From positions 1 to 57,317 of the forward strand of contig JAIOSF010000020.1 of NCBI GenBank assembly GCA_021107755.1: DNA of 57,317 nucleotides. The letters are read 5' to 3'. Below are positions 14,969 through 36,273 of this stretch, one piece after another; position 1 is the stretch's first letter, and each line of letters opens with the position of its first letter. The notes below the pieces were generated by a model, which saw only the letters and a list, made by a program, of their open reading frames with translations, was not told the DNA's origin and ran no database searches. This stretch comes from Arcobacteraceae bacterium. GTDB taxonomy: Bacteria; Campylobacterota; Campylobacteria; Campylobacterales; Arcobacteraceae. Both the position numbers and the translations under genes were made by a program.

Positions 14969-15415
14969 TTACTCTATACTTTCTTGAGTATCTTTTATCT
15001 CTATTTCACACACTGCTTTATCTACATTTTTTAAATCAGGTCTACCTACTAATAGTCCCATATTAACAGTACCTTGAATACAAACAATATCATTTTCTTT
15101 GACATATACGGCAACTGTAGAAGTAGCTTCAGTTTTTGCCCATAAAATTTTCTTACCTGGTGTCATCTCTTTTGAAATAAAACCACCATTTCGTAATGTT
15201 CCAATAACTTCATCATCATTATTTTTATTTTTTACATCATAGTAAACTCCGCCACCTATAAAACTTGATGGTCTATATACATATACCATCCCTTTACCTT
15301 CTGTCGGTGTTTTGAAGCCCATAAATTGTTTCCCTTTTGCTCCACATCCTGTAAATCCAAGTGCTAATGTTACTCCAATAATTCCTGTTGTAACTAATGA
15401 TAGGTTTATCTTCAT
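14969..15415 (-). CDS. DUF2846-type lipoprotein
   Basis: A 148-aa exported lipoprotein. The signal peptide ends in a lipobox F-T-G-C with lipidated Cys24. The rest is a predicted beta-rich domain with V-Y-V-Y-R-P near residue 45, matching the DUF2846 family, whose role is unknown. It heads a two-gene unit with the DUF4234-like membrane protein, suggesting an envelope function. The RBS region before the ATG is AGAGAAAATG, acceptable for this genome. Confidence 0.8.
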   Translation of the reverse strand: MKINLSLVTTGIIGVTLALGFTGCGAKGKQFMGFKTPTEGKGMVYVYRPSSFIGGGVYYDVKNKNNDDEVIGTLRNGGFISKEMTPGKKILWAKTEATSTVAVYVKENDIVCIQGTVNMGLLVGRPDLKNVDKAVCEIEIKDTQESIE

Positions 15416-15595
15416 TTTCTCTCCATGTTATTTTATTAAATTATTTATATTATTTTAGTTTATTTACAAATATTCTAGAAATCAAATAAATAATTAGTAT
15501 AAAATTCTATCTAAACAATGTCACATATAGTGTCACACTTTTGAGAAATTCTAAAAATTATAATTTAGATTGTATTTAATTTTTTATAGAAAAGT

Positions 15596-31803: not shown

Positions 31804-31857
31804 GGGAGACAATATTATTCTACGATTTTATGCTAAAATGTTTAAAGGGATATTTTG

Positions 31858-33705
31858 ATGATACGGATAAATTTGATATTGTTACTTTTTATTATATGTG
31901 TAGAAGCTTCATCAATTGTGATAGATGAAGAGACATCTAATACAAAAATATTATCTCAAAGTTTTATATATAAAGACAACACAAAATCCTTAACAATTAA
32001 AGAGATCCAAAATAGTGGTATATCCTTTGAAGAGATTAAGAAATCAAGAGTATCTTTTGGATATTCACCAAGTTTTGATGTCTGGATAAAGTTTACACTC
32101 CATAACAGTAGTGATAAAAAAATAAAAAAAATTATAGAGTATGCTAATCCTTTAACAACGCATATTGAATTTTTTGATATAACAAATAAAAATACTTATA
32201 AAGATGGACTTTTTCAAATTAATACAAACAGAAAAACTGTAAATCCATATTTTGAAATTTCATTAGAACCAAATGAGGTAAGTACATATTATATAAAAGC
32301 CTCTTCTAATATAACAACTTTGATTATAGAATTAAATTTATGGAATACACAAGATTTTTATAATAAAGAGTTACAACATCAATCTATTTTACAGCTATTT
32401 TTTGGTGCAATGCTTGTATTGGCTTTTTATAATATATTTATATACTTTTTTACTAAAGATGTAAGTTACCTTTTTTATGTTTTCTATATATTTGGAGTTG
32501 TTATTCACCAATTGATGTATAGTGGAATTACTTATATTTACTTTTTTGATAGTGAAAATATTGAATTTTTTATTAAAGGTGCAACTTTTATAGTGGCTAT
32601 TCCTATATTTGCTTTAGGTCTATTTATAAAGTATTTTATAAAACTTAAACAATATCCTTTATTAAATAAGATATTAAATATATATCTATTTTTATTTCCA
32701 TTTTTAAGTTTATTATTTGTTGTAACTTATTCATTTGATAAATTTCGTAATATATTCACGGTTATATTATTAATATATCTAGTGTATATAGCTATATATA
32801 CAGCAATAAAAGGAAATAGACAATCTTTTTTTATAATCGCTGGTTGGATTGTAATGTTTATTGGTGGTATAGTAATGTATCTATCAAGTACGGGAATTTT
32901 TAATGTATATCAATATTTTCCATATGTAGTTGAATTAACTTTTGTCTTAGAAGCTTTACTTTTCTCTATAGCTTTAGCAGATAAAATAAATCAATTACAG
33001 TATGAAAAAAATAAGTCAGATAGAGACCTTATAACACTACAAAAAACAGAAAAAAAGAGATTAATTGTTGAAGTTGAAAATAAGACACAAGAGCTTAAAA
33101 GTGCATTAGATGTACAAACAACTTTACTTAAAGAGTTAAATCATAGAGTTAAAAATAATATGCAAACAATAATATCTCTGGTAAGACTCCAAGCAGATGA
33201 AGTAGAAGATGAAAATATGCAAAATATTTTCACAACTATACAAAACAGAATAAGTGCTATGAGTTATTTGCATGAATTACTTTATAAACAAAGTGATATA
33301 TCTCATGTAAATGTTCATGAGTATTTTGATAATCTTATTGGGGGATTACAAGATAGCTATGAAAATGAGAGTGAAATTATTTATGATATACGGATAAACT
33401 TAGAAGTAGAGTCAGCTATATCTCGTGGACTTATTTTAAATGAGCTTGTTACAAACTCTTTTAAGTATGCTTTTTTAGATAAGTTAGGAAATATTTGGAT
33501 CACTTTATATAAAAAAGAGGATAGTTTTTATCTCACGATAGAAGATGATGGAGTAGGTTATAACTCTGATCAAACAAAACATTCTTTCGGTCTTATTCTT
33601 GTAAAAACACTTGTAGAAAACCATCTTCAAGGAACTATTACAACAACAAGTACAAAGAGTGGAGTAAAAAACCAAATTATATGGAGAGAAGATGCCCAAA
33701 GCTAA
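31858..33705 (+). CDS. 7TMR-DISM sensor histidine kinase (HisKA_2 type)
   Basis: A 615-aa membrane sensor. A signal peptide (about residues 1-18) is followed by a periplasmic DISMED2-like beta domain (to about residue 165), seven membrane helices (about 175-370) and a coiled coil. A HisKA_2 dimerisation domain has the phospho-acceptor His429 in E-L-N-H-R-V-K-N-N-M, and an HATPase domain carries D-D-G-V-G-Y near residue 565. The extracellular ligand is unknown; DISM domains often bind carbohydrates or small molecules. ATG at 31858, preceded by AAAGGGA, is preferred over an adjoining TTG. The gene overlaps the response regulator by 14 bases. Confidence 0.9.
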   Translation: MIRINLILLLFIICVEASSIVIDEETSNTKILSQSFIYKDNTKSLTIKEIQNSGISFEEIKKSRVSFGYSPSFDVWIKFTLHNSSDKKIKKIIEYANPLTTHIEFFDITNKNTYKDGLFQINTNRKTVNPYFEISLEPNEVSTYYIKASSNITTLIIELNLWNTQDFYNKELQHQSILQLFFGAMLVLAFYNIFIYFFTKDVSYLFYVFYIFGVVIHQLMYSGITYIYFFDSENIEFFIKGATFIVAIPIFALGLFIKYFIKLKQYPLLNKILNIYLFLFPFLSLLFVVTYSFDKFRNIFTVILLIYLVYIAIYTAIKGNRQSFFIIAGWIVMFIGGIVMYLSSTGIFNVYQYFPYVVELTFVLEALLFSIALADKINQLQYEKNKSDRDLITLQKTEKKRLIVEVENKTQELKSALDVQTTLLKELNHRVKNNMQTIISLVRLQADEVEDENMQNIFTTIQNRISAMSYLHELLYKQSDISHVNVHEYFDNLIGGLQDSYENESEIIYDIRINLEVESAISRGLILNELVTNSFKYAFLDKLGNIWITLYKKEDSFYLTIEDDGVGYNSDQTKHSFGLILVKTLVENHLQGTITTTSTKSGVKNQIIWREDAQS

Positions 33706-34381
33706 GATACTAATAGTAGAAGACAATCCTATAACAGCAGCAGATTTAAAAAGTGCATTAAAAAAATTAGATTTTTATATAACAAATATTGTGTCTTCAT
33801 ATAATGAAGCCTTGATTAGTATAAAACAAAATGAGCCAGATATGATTATGATGGATATTGATCTTGGTAAAAGTAAGAATGGTATAGAACTAGCATATGA
33901 AATAAAAAAAAGTAAAAACATTTCTATTTTGTATTTAACATCATTTTCAGATGATGATACTATGGAAAAAGCTTTTGCTACAGACCCTGTAGGCTATCTT
34001 GTAAAACCTTTTAAGCGTGAAGAGTTGAAAACTACTATAATGTTAGCACTTTATAAAATTAATAAGTTAGAATATGAAAATATAAATCAAGATCATACCT
34101 ATATAGGATATGGATATTATTTTGATTTAAAAACAGCACAACTTTACTATAAAAGTAAATATATCAAACTTGGTATAAAAGAAAAACAACTCTTAGCAGT
34201 ATTGACAGAAGCACAAGGTTTGGTTATATCTAATGAGCAACTTGAACATAAACTTTGGGCAGATAATGCTCCATCTAACAGCTCATTACGAACACTTGTC
34301 TATAGACTTAAATCAAAACTTGGATGTAATATAATCGAAACATCATATTCCAATGGATATAAGCTATCTTTTTTTAAATAG
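33692..34381 (+). CDS. OmpR-family response regulator
   Basis: A 229-aa transcription factor. The receiver domain (residues 1-120) has the acidic pair E10-D11, the phospho-acceptor Asp55 in M-M-D-I-D-L-G and the conserved Lys in V-K-P-F near residue 108. The C-terminal winged helix (about 140-229) ends with S-Y-S-N-G-Y-K-L-S-F, typical of Trans_reg_C. It is the evident partner of the overlapping kinase. Such factors usually bind direct repeats spaced 10-11 bp; a pair with that spacing lies upstream of the next gene. Confidence 0.92.
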   Translation: MPKAKILIVEDNPITAADLKSALKKLDFYITNIVSSYNEALISIKQNEPDMIMMDIDLGKSKNGIELAYEIKKSKNISILYLTSFSDDDTMEKAFATDPVGYLVKPFKREELKTTIMLALYKINKLEYENINQDHTYIGYGYYFDLKTAQLYYKSKYIKLGIKEKQLLAVLTEAQGLVISNEQLEHKLWADNAPSNSSLRTLVYRLKSKLGCNIIETSYSNGYKLSFFK

Positions 34382-34482: not shown

Positions 34483-34536
34483 CTTAATTTAATCTTAAAT
34501 CATGTGACAATTCAATCTATACTTCTCTTGTACAAT
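34483..34536 (+). promoter_or_regulatory. Candidate OmpR-type direct repeats and -10 box
   Basis: CTTAA occurs at 34483-34487 and 34494-34498, exactly 11 bp apart, the phase used by PhoB/OmpR-class activators. TACAAT at 34531-34536 is a plausible -10 box, leaving the repeats about 45-60 bases upstream of the start site, a normal activator position. No consensus -35 box is seen. Confidence 0.4.
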
Positions 34537-34566
34537 ATTTATCTAACTTAATACAAAGGATAAATT

Positions 34567-35325
34567 ATGTTCAACATAAACAAAAACAATACATTAGAGG
34601 TGCTACAACAACTTGTAGAAAACAATATTTCACAAAAACTCAGTTATATGCCAGAGAGTTTTAATGAACAACAAAAAGGTGCAATTGAGTTATTTCGAAA
34701 AAGAATTTTTTTAGAAAAAATTGTTGATGAATCAATTGCTTTTAACAAAAAAATTATCTTTCCAAATGAAAATAAAAATATTCATCTAGCAACTACAGCA
34801 GAATCACTAGTTGAAGTATTTAAATTAAGAAGTGATGTATATTCTAGTTTAAATTATCAAGATGAGTTTCCAGATACTATTGAGGGCTTAAATTTTGATA
34901 AGTATGATTCTAATGCAGCTATATTATTTTATAAAGTAGATAAACAAATTACTGGTACTACAAGACTAATATTTGATTCAACGAATAAATTACCTTCTGA
35001 AGATAAATTTTCTTTTAATAATCAAAGAGATAAATATAATACAATAGGTGAATTATCACGATTAATAGTTCGTAAAAATACTAAAGGTTTAGGTTTAGAG
35101 TTTAAAAATATAATGGGTGGAATATATCATATATTTATAAATAATGATATTGATATCACTTTTCTTGCAATTATTAAAGAACATTATAAACTATATACAA
35201 AATTTGGTGGAAGTGAAATCATTTTCAATTCAGATAACTATGGTAACTTAGGACATCCTGTCTATATACTTTCCTGGGACCCATCAAAAGTATCTCCATT
35301 TTTTAAGAAAGCTTTTTTAAAATAA
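34567..35325 (+). CDS. LuxI/FeeM-like N-acyltransferase (possible signal synthase)
   Basis: A 252-aa protein whose core (about residues 75-240) follows the autoinducer-synthase form of the GNAT fold. By eye, LuxI-type landmark residues fall at R88, Y92, D111, D114, R133, F148 or F150, E162 and R165. The strongest stretch is G-E-L-S-R-L-I-V (161-168), matching the LuxI E-x-S-R-x-x-V. The LuxI E44 position appears to be Asn109. The first 70 residues are a helical extension not found in LuxI. N-acyl amino acid synthases (FeeM) share this core, so the product could be an acyl-homoserine lactone or another N-acyl amine. AAAGGA lies before the ATG. It follows a kinase/regulator pair and precedes a diguanylate cyclase gene. 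Confidence 0.65.
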   Translation: MFNINKNNTLEVLQQLVENNISQKLSYMPESFNEQQKGAIELFRKRIFLEKIVDESIAFNKKIIFPNENKNIHLATTAESLVEVFKLRSDVYSSLNYQDEFPDTIEGLNFDKYDSNAAILFYKVDKQITGTTRLIFDSTNKLPSEDKFSFNNQRDKYNTIGELSRLIVRKNTKGLGLEFKNIMGGIYHIFINNDIDITFLAIIKEHYKLYTKFGGSEIIFNSDNYGNLGHPVYILSWDPSKVSPFFKKAFLK

Positions 35326-35466: not shown

Positions 35467-36273
35467 GTGTCAATAAAGCTAAAAGAGATTACATATAAAG
35501 TATTAAAAAAAATAAAAGGTAAAGAGGTTGTTTTACCTGCTGACTATTCTAAACTTTTTGAAGAGTGTGCCCAAGAGATAAATTTTGATTTGACTAATCA
35601 AGAGTTAGTTTTAAAAGACCTTAACCATGACACTAGTAAGCTAAATGATTTAGTAAAAACTACAAATAAAAATCTTGAAACATTACAAACTTCTACTAAA
35701 AATGCTCAAGAAGCAATTGTGAGTAAAGATACAAAAAAACTTGAAAAAATAAGTCAAGATCTTGATGAAATGAAAAAAAAGATACAGTTCTTACAACAAG
35801 AATTGTTCTCAGATACATTAACAAAAGCATATAATAGAAAATGGTTTGATATGCAATATGTTCATAATAACAAGTTTAAAGAAGATGGTTTTTTAGCATT
35901 TATTGATTTAAATAAATTTAAACAAATTAATGATTCATATGGTCACTTGGTAGGAGATATGGTTTTAAAATATTTAAGCAATTTTTTAAAAAAAGAGGTT
36001 ACTTTTAAACATAGACATGTAATAAGATATGCAGGAGATGAGTTTTTACTGTTAATAGATGATAAAATATCATACAAAAAAGTAAGTGAAGAGTTAAATC
36101 ATATACAAGAAAAACTAACAAAACAAAAATTAAAAATAAAAAGTTCTGATAATATTACATTTACTTTTGGTTTTTCTTATGGTTTAGTAGAGTTTAAAAA
36201 TAATGATTTAGTAGATAAAATTATTGAAGATGCTGATGGAAAAATGTATGAGGACAAACAAAAGTCCAAATAG
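35467..36273 (+). CDS. Diguanylate cyclase (GGDEF domain)
   Basis: A 268-aa soluble enzyme predicted to make cyclic di-GMP. Residues 45-115 are a coiled coil, likely for dimerisation. The catalytic domain (115-265) carries A-G-D-E-F at 189-193 and the substrate-binding F-I-D-L-N-K-F-K-Q-I-N-D near residue 150. The RxxD inhibitory site that should precede it is absent, so product feedback is unlikely. There is no sensor domain, so control would come from expression or a partner. The start is GTG with AGGA upstream. It lies about 140 bases after the acyl-synthase gene. Confidence 0.9.
   Translation: MSIKLKEITYKVLKKIKGKEVVLPADYSKLFEECAQEINFDLTNQELVLKDLNHDTSKLNDLVKTTNKNLETLQTSTKNAQEAIVSKDTKKLEKISQDLDEMKKKIQFLQQELFSDTLTKAYNRKWFDMQYVHNNKFKEDGFLAFIDLNKFKQINDSYGHLVGDMVLKYLSNFLKKEVTFKHRHVIRYAGDEFLLLIDDKISYKKVSEELNHIQEKLTKQKLKIKSSDNITFTFGFSYGLVEFKNNDLVDKIIEDADGKMYEDKQKSK

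Follow-up and report, generated by a model that had tools for sequence, protein, structure and literature searches.

A FeeM-type acyltransferase encoded with a membrane histidine kinase and an OmpR-type regulator in Arcobacteraceae: parts of a possible acyl-signal circuit

As the closest described relatives of the enzyme considered here, the FeeM synthases (Pfam PF21926; among them FeeM, PDB 2G0B, Nas354 and NasP) carry a catalytic glutamate, which is Glu95 in FeeM and Glu103 in Nas354, where its mutation abolishes activity; what N-acyl amino acid synthases do physiologically has been described as unclear (PMC4897644). LuxI enzymes (PF00765) have a tryptophan at the tenth position after their first conserved arginine. 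At the level of gene organization, the Vibrio systems LuxM/LuxN and CqsA/CqsS are the nearest comparison: in both, the signal synthase is encoded beside a multi-pass membrane histidine kinase.

The locus described here lies in an Arcobacteraceae genome (Campylobacterota) and was analysed within a stretch of 57,317 nucleotides, hereafter the window. Like the Vibrio systems it ties a synthase gene to a membrane kinase, the two being adjacent in 48 of 50 loci. In most relatives a regulatory site stands upstream of both the synthase gene and target genes; the window keeps only a half-site before its synthase, and binding of the regulator at such sites is inferred. It differs from LuxM/LuxN and CqsA/CqsS in its unrelated type of synthase, in its 7TMR-DISM kinase with a HisKA_2 domain, in an OmpR-type regulator that would act directly at promoters (an inference), and in moving between sites and plasmids. 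The features of the window are as follows.

15520..15536, minus strand: full GTGAC-N7-GTGAC site, its -10 box at the standard offset, lying 104 bp upstream of a lipoprotein-like gene (14969-15415, minus strand).
31855..33705, plus strand: membrane sensor histidine kinase with 7TMR-DISMED2, 7TMR-DISM_7TM, HisKA_2/HWE and HATPase_c domains (Pfam); the start is only approximate (TTG at 31855, then an ATG codon).
33692..34381, plus strand: OmpR-type response regulator (Response_reg and Trans_reg_C, Pfam), overlapping the end of the kinase gene, kept beside the kinase and carrying a variant recognition helix.
34504..34508, plus strand: single GTGAC half-site, the first half of the tandem repeat in most relatives; weak in the window alone.
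34531..34536, plus strand: TACAAT, candidate -10 box, at the offset seen in 72 other promoters (11-16 after the second half-site).
34537..34565, plus strand: inverted repeat ATTTATC ... GATAAAT with a 7-bp stem, whose 3' arm overlaps the ribosome-binding site AAAGGA.
34567..35325, plus strand: FeeM-type acyltransferase of 252 aa with an ATG start, identified by Pfam FeeM, fold Z and conserved active site; helical N-terminus at residues 1-70, GNAT/LuxI-FeeM fold at 70-252; the opposite strand is rich in stops.

The original prediction had called the last of these a LuxI/FeeM-like acyl synthase in a Campylobacterota-type genome. Against Pfam FeeM the protein scored 72.1 bits over residues 83-236 (cut-off 27, E 5.8e-20), and it remained under the cut-offs of Autoind_synth (PF00765, LuxI; 15.2 bits against 24) and Acetyltransf_5 (21.2 bits against 22.4). 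The only NCBIfam match was a sub-threshold one to the PEP-CTERM/exosortase-associated acyltransferases (TIGR03694; 39.9 bits against 111.95, residues 71-171); with that score far below the cut-off and no exosortase (PF09721) in any of the 41 synthase-positive genomes, an exosortase link was rejected. A phmmer search of PDB sequences with the single protein gave no match, and a profile built from 11 relatives found FeeM (2g0b) as its best match (E 0.015), with E162 aligned to the glutamate of the FeeM motif LAEVVQ. When the structural model was searched with Foldseek, the top matches were RpaI, LasI and FeeM; VIA-align placed FeeM first (2g0b_C, Z 18.8, 170 residues, 2.7 A) and AHL synthases second (Z 15.4-17.1, with LasI, BjaI, RpaI, MesI and TofI as family members), plain GNATs filling the rest of the list (the best at Z 15.8, the others at or below 14.8). 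On the strength of the FeeM profile, the fold ranking and the alignment of the catalytic glutamate we therefore conclude that the synthase is a FeeM-type enzyme, LuxI-like only in fold and active-site residues. Membership of the LuxI family fails because PF00765 stays under its cut-off and because LuxR-type receptors (PF03472, autoinducer-binding domain) are absent from all 41 synthase-positive genomes, in a search whose E. coli control was positive. The original prediction is thus supported overall: its FeeM half is right, its LuxI half is right only for fold and active-site residues, and neither of the two outcomes that it had named as refuting occurred, neither in the profile comparison (FeeM far above cut-off, LuxI below) nor among the structural matches, where almost every plain GNAT ranks behind FeeM and the AHL synthases.

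Its finer claims held as well. The landmark residues said to stand in LuxI order (R88, D111, D114, R133, E162 and R165, with an E-L-S-R-L-I-V core) were confirmed at those positions together with a GELSRLIV core. In an alignment of 48 homologues R88, D111, D114 and E162 are invariant, R133 and S164 are each kept in 47 and R165 in 46; because these residues are kept so widely, the active site is conserved and not a chance resemblance. The asparagine noted at the E44 position is N109, an Asn in 46 of the 48, and the assignment to Campylobacterota was correct. The N-terminal helical extension of some 70 residues appears in the AlphaFold2 model (mean pLDDT 83), which has helices at 10-21 and 30-62 and a GNAT fold from about residue 70; its conservation is slightly lower than that of the catalytic part (majority residue 0.56-0.61 against 0.64-0.72). 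FeeM differs from the synthase in lacking this extension and in having S and Q at the two Arg positions of the R-E-x-x-R pattern, and the synthase is tied to a two-component system rather than to an attached PilZ or cNMP domain. With LuxI the synthase shares the Arg/Asp/Asp/Arg/Glu/Arg order and the E-x-S-R core; it appears to lack the LuxI tryptophan, the tenth position after R88 being Q98 (Gln in 35 of 48 homologues, Trp in none) next to an invariant Y97, in what is a distant alignment.

Members of this synthase subfamily occur in 41 of 104 Arcobacteraceae genomes and in 24 of 397 sampled Campylobacterota genomes, Sulfurospirillum included, and six Arcobacter/Aliarcobacter plasmids carry the gene under the annotation 'hypothetical protein'. 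No match was found on phage or viral contigs, and carriage by phages or viruses was rejected. On the Aliarcobacter cryaerophilus plasmid pCNAC48 (locus L132, 779-10056) the cassette and mef(A) lie between two copies of one transposase (WP_263514435.1), with msr(D) immediately outside the pair; here the cassette may move as part of a composite element. In two genomes the synthase looks incomplete and the kinase and regulator intact: the frame is interrupted in G087 (L106, 6239-6715), and in G119 (L113) the gene is short near a contig end. These could be receptor-only states, although we put this forward only as a possibility. In another Campylobacterota family a different FeeM-family protein (G040; L114, 10018-10947) is fused to a cyclic-nucleotide-binding domain and has no kinase, and in this it resembles NasP, which is reportedly cAMP-activated.

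In the window the synthase gene follows the 7TMR-DISM/HisKA_2 kinase and the OmpR-type regulator. The same kinase lies no more than three genes from the synthase in 48 of 50 loci, nearly always with an OmpR-type regulator; the two exceptions, G093 and the Sulfurospirillum genome G272, carry the kinase-regulator pair elsewhere on the contig, at distances of about 15 and 33 kb. The layouts are kinase-regulator-synthase with or without a second regulator downstream, convergent and divergent forms, and regulator-synthase-kinase; sites and orientations are varied, and the genes outside the cassette differ between genera. The kinase clade, cut at more than 360 bits in Arcobacteraceae (below which there is a clear gap down to 291), is present in 41 of 41 synthase-positive and 5 of 63 synthase-negative Arcobacteraceae genomes (Fisher p 9e-24), those five having kinase and regulator without a synthase. 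Across the Campylobacterota sample the corresponding counts are 24/24 and 11/373 at 360 bits, and 23/24 and 5/373 at 450 bits. The thresholds were picked after the scores had been seen, and the genomes counted are related to one another. After removal of the RecA signal, the synthase, kinase and regulator distances still correlate (partial r 0.71 and 0.73, 0 of 2000 permutations), and since the correlation goes beyond RecA the genes of the cassette are inherited together, in part independently of the species tree.

Several neighbours of the cassette deserve mention in their own right. Many Aliarcobacter-like genomes have a second OmpR-type regulator directly after the synthase, with a GTGAC tandem site of its own (L016, L017, L082, L086 and others), and sbcD/sbcC-like nuclease gene pairs adjoin the cassette in several genera (L018, L021, L091, L098, L102, L077). 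A GGDEF (diguanylate cyclase) gene at 35467-36273, directly after the synthase, was rejected as a partner, as it is adjacent in the window only. No known RNA families were found around the cassette.

Upstream of the synthase gene, 28 of 42 relatives have an exact GTGAC-N6/7-GTGAC tandem (0.04% in shuffles) and 35 of 42 have one with at most one mismatch (0.15% in shuffles), nearly always at -53 to -64 from the gene and once at -73. The window has only a half-site, and its half-site and -10 box stand at exactly the predicted spacing. The element is used genome-wide: the form with a 12-bp period occurs 5.4 times per synthase-positive Arcobacteraceae genome against 0.44 times in genomes lacking both kinase and synthase (p 7.5e-10), an excess that holds when one site per genome is discounted (p 6.6e-8), while a reversed-pattern control gave a median of zero and, owing to a few outlier genomes, a mean of 1.4-1.5. 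Kinase-only genomes have 1.2 sites of the 12-bp form and 2.8 of an 11-bp form, and because the site is common only where the pair is present, these genomes included, it tracks the two-component pair. In synthase-positive genomes it marks from several up to about 25 promoters. A closer reading covered 87 sites, of which 72 are followed by a gene start at 15-130 bp; the -10 box of these 72 keeps a constant offset (T at +11 in 97%, A at +12 in 99%, T at +16 in 99%). Such spacing would be the geometry of an activator replacing the -35 box, an inference from sequence alone.

Assignment of the cassette's regulator to this site is likewise inferred, and is supported by co-variation of helix and site across several lineages. 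Most regulators have a recognition helix close to YRLR-KLEYK; those of the window, G003 and G093 read YRLK/N-(S/G)KLG, and there the full repeat is absent; those of G110 and G111 read WRLR, and their repeats are TTGAC. G331 is an exception, lacking a GTGAC site though its helix is of the usual kind. The window's genome also has a second kinase-regulator pair, without a synthase and with the usual helix (contig C11; L127, 5063-9355), where complete GTGAC tandem sites precede the kinase gene and the next ORF, of 563 aa and no Pfam family. It is possible that the genome's roughly ten GTGAC sites, the one at 15520..15536 included, are served by this paralogous pair instead.

Genes behind these promoters vary from genome to genome. 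In the window's genome the targets include a T2SS pseudopilin along with a second pilin-like protein, a ShlB/FhaC transporter, a lipoprotein-like protein and sensor proteins; among the 25 sites of G012 they include SIR2-TPR, TIR, KAP NTPase, HetE-N, Tle1-like phospholipase and AbiZ-like proteins. SbcD-like genes stand under GTGAC promoters in three genomes (L210, L223, L227) other than those with sbcD/sbcC beside the cassette. An anti-phage defence link of the regulon, suggested by its SIR2, TIR, KAP, Old/GajA-like and AbiZ-like members, was rejected: enrichment is unsupported because 67 other genes from the same loci match PADLOC models as richly.

In many lineages an inverted repeat lies directly before the synthase start codon, with the ribosome-binding site in its 3' arm and with arm sequences that differ by lineage (for example GTTTGTCCT/AGGACAAAC, TTTCTATC/GATAGAAA and TCTCCTGAT/ATCAGGAGA). 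Stems of 8 or more precede 43% of the synthase genes (n = 42), against 4% of kinase genes (n = 28), 1% of other genes (n = 210) and not one of the 49 regulator genes, counts that take in related sequences several times over. Among the genes compared, in the cassette and outside it, the hairpin is thus specific to the synthase; its effect on translation is inferred. The 7-bp stem of the window is not significant alone (p 0.11). In the window by itself both promoter site and hairpin are weak, and this part of the case rests on the relatives.

By building on these parts, we propose that the cassette encodes a self-amplifying circuit in which an N-acyl amino-acid-like signal is sensed by the kinase, a proposal that on present evidence could as readily prove wrong as right. 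The acyltransferase would take a fatty-acyl group from acyl-ACP (or acyl-CoA) and attach it to an amino acid or a comparable amine; the product would leave the cell and be detected by the neighbouring 7TMR-DISM kinase, which would phosphorylate the OmpR-type regulator; and the regulator would bind the tandem GTGAC repeats, which would take the place of a -35 box, and activate the synthase gene itself, as positive feedback, along with a variable set of other genes, while the hairpin would hold down translation of the synthase. A signal is favoured over a mere product because the pair, although it seems to act at several and up to about 25 promoters, is rarely retained where the synthase is missing; the pair would thus behave like a receptor that needs its ligand, which is again inferred. 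Partners of the LuxR and exosortase kinds are not at hand, since none was found in the 41 genomes. The conserved kinase and regulator, which the original prediction had not mentioned, lend circumstantial support to its guess that the acylated small molecule is perhaps a signal; the product itself is only inferred.

Several observations count against the circuit: kinase and regulator persist in five genomes that lack the synthase, the window retains one half-site and a 7-bp stem, the complete GTGAC sites of its genome may belong to the C11 pair, and G331 has no site despite its usual helix. In addition, sensing of acyl amino acids is not known for 7TMR-DISM kinases from elsewhere. A bolder reading would see here an undescribed quorum-sensing circuit on a FeeM-type N-acyl amino acid signal: a horizontally moving cassette, autoinduced via tandem GTGAC, held by a hairpin, and recruiting locally different genes (surface, secretion, nuclease, defence-like) by one promoter element. 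Taken jointly, these claims are more likely to fail than to hold.

The strongest rival is that the acyltransferase makes a regulated product rather than a signal, the kinase responding to a cue from outside or from the envelope and the synthase being one of its outputs, whose N-acyl amino acid would act as a surfactant, a membrane lipid or an antibiotic. Known N-acyl amino acid synthases do make surfactant and antibacterial N-acyltyrosines (PMC4897644), synthases of the family stand under other regulators elsewhere (a PilZ fusion, and the cNMP-binding fusion of L114), and a tandem site before the synthase suits an output as well as a feedback loop. Under this explanation, however, the pair should often persist without the synthase, yet it does so in just 5 of 63 synthase-negative Arcobacteraceae genomes; we rate it as the less probable account, though by no means a remote one. 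That the enzyme is a true AHL synthase, using S-adenosylmethionine to make an AHL, is unlikely: the LuxI-ordered active site with its E-x-S-R core, conserved in 48 homologues, and the second-best fold matches to AHL synthases speak for it, but the PF00765 score is too low (15.2 bits against 24), the tenth position after R88 is never Trp (with the caveat of a distant alignment), and the 41 genomes have no LuxR-type receptor. A plain GNAT, acetylating a small molecule or protein and handling no long acyl chain, is very unlikely, for although the remaining places in the fold list go to plain GNATs (Z up to 15.8) and an acyl tunnel is only presumed, the FeeM profile is well above cut-off, FeeM and AHL synthases lead both fold rankings, and E162 aligns with the region of the FeeM catalytic glutamate.

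Returning to the signal circuit that we prefer, each of its pieces is of a known kind, and their combination is new to the literature searched, which was restricted to open-licence papers: there we found neither a description of acyl-signal quorum sensing in Campylobacterota nor a FeeM-type synthase that is joined by a membrane kinase and a regulator dedicated to it, a promoter element and a leader hairpin. N-acyl amino acids have long been suspected of being signals, and a conserved receptor-like partner and a defined promoter element make this idea directly testable; the set of target promoters offers a way to read what such a signal would control in these widespread water- and food-borne bacteria.
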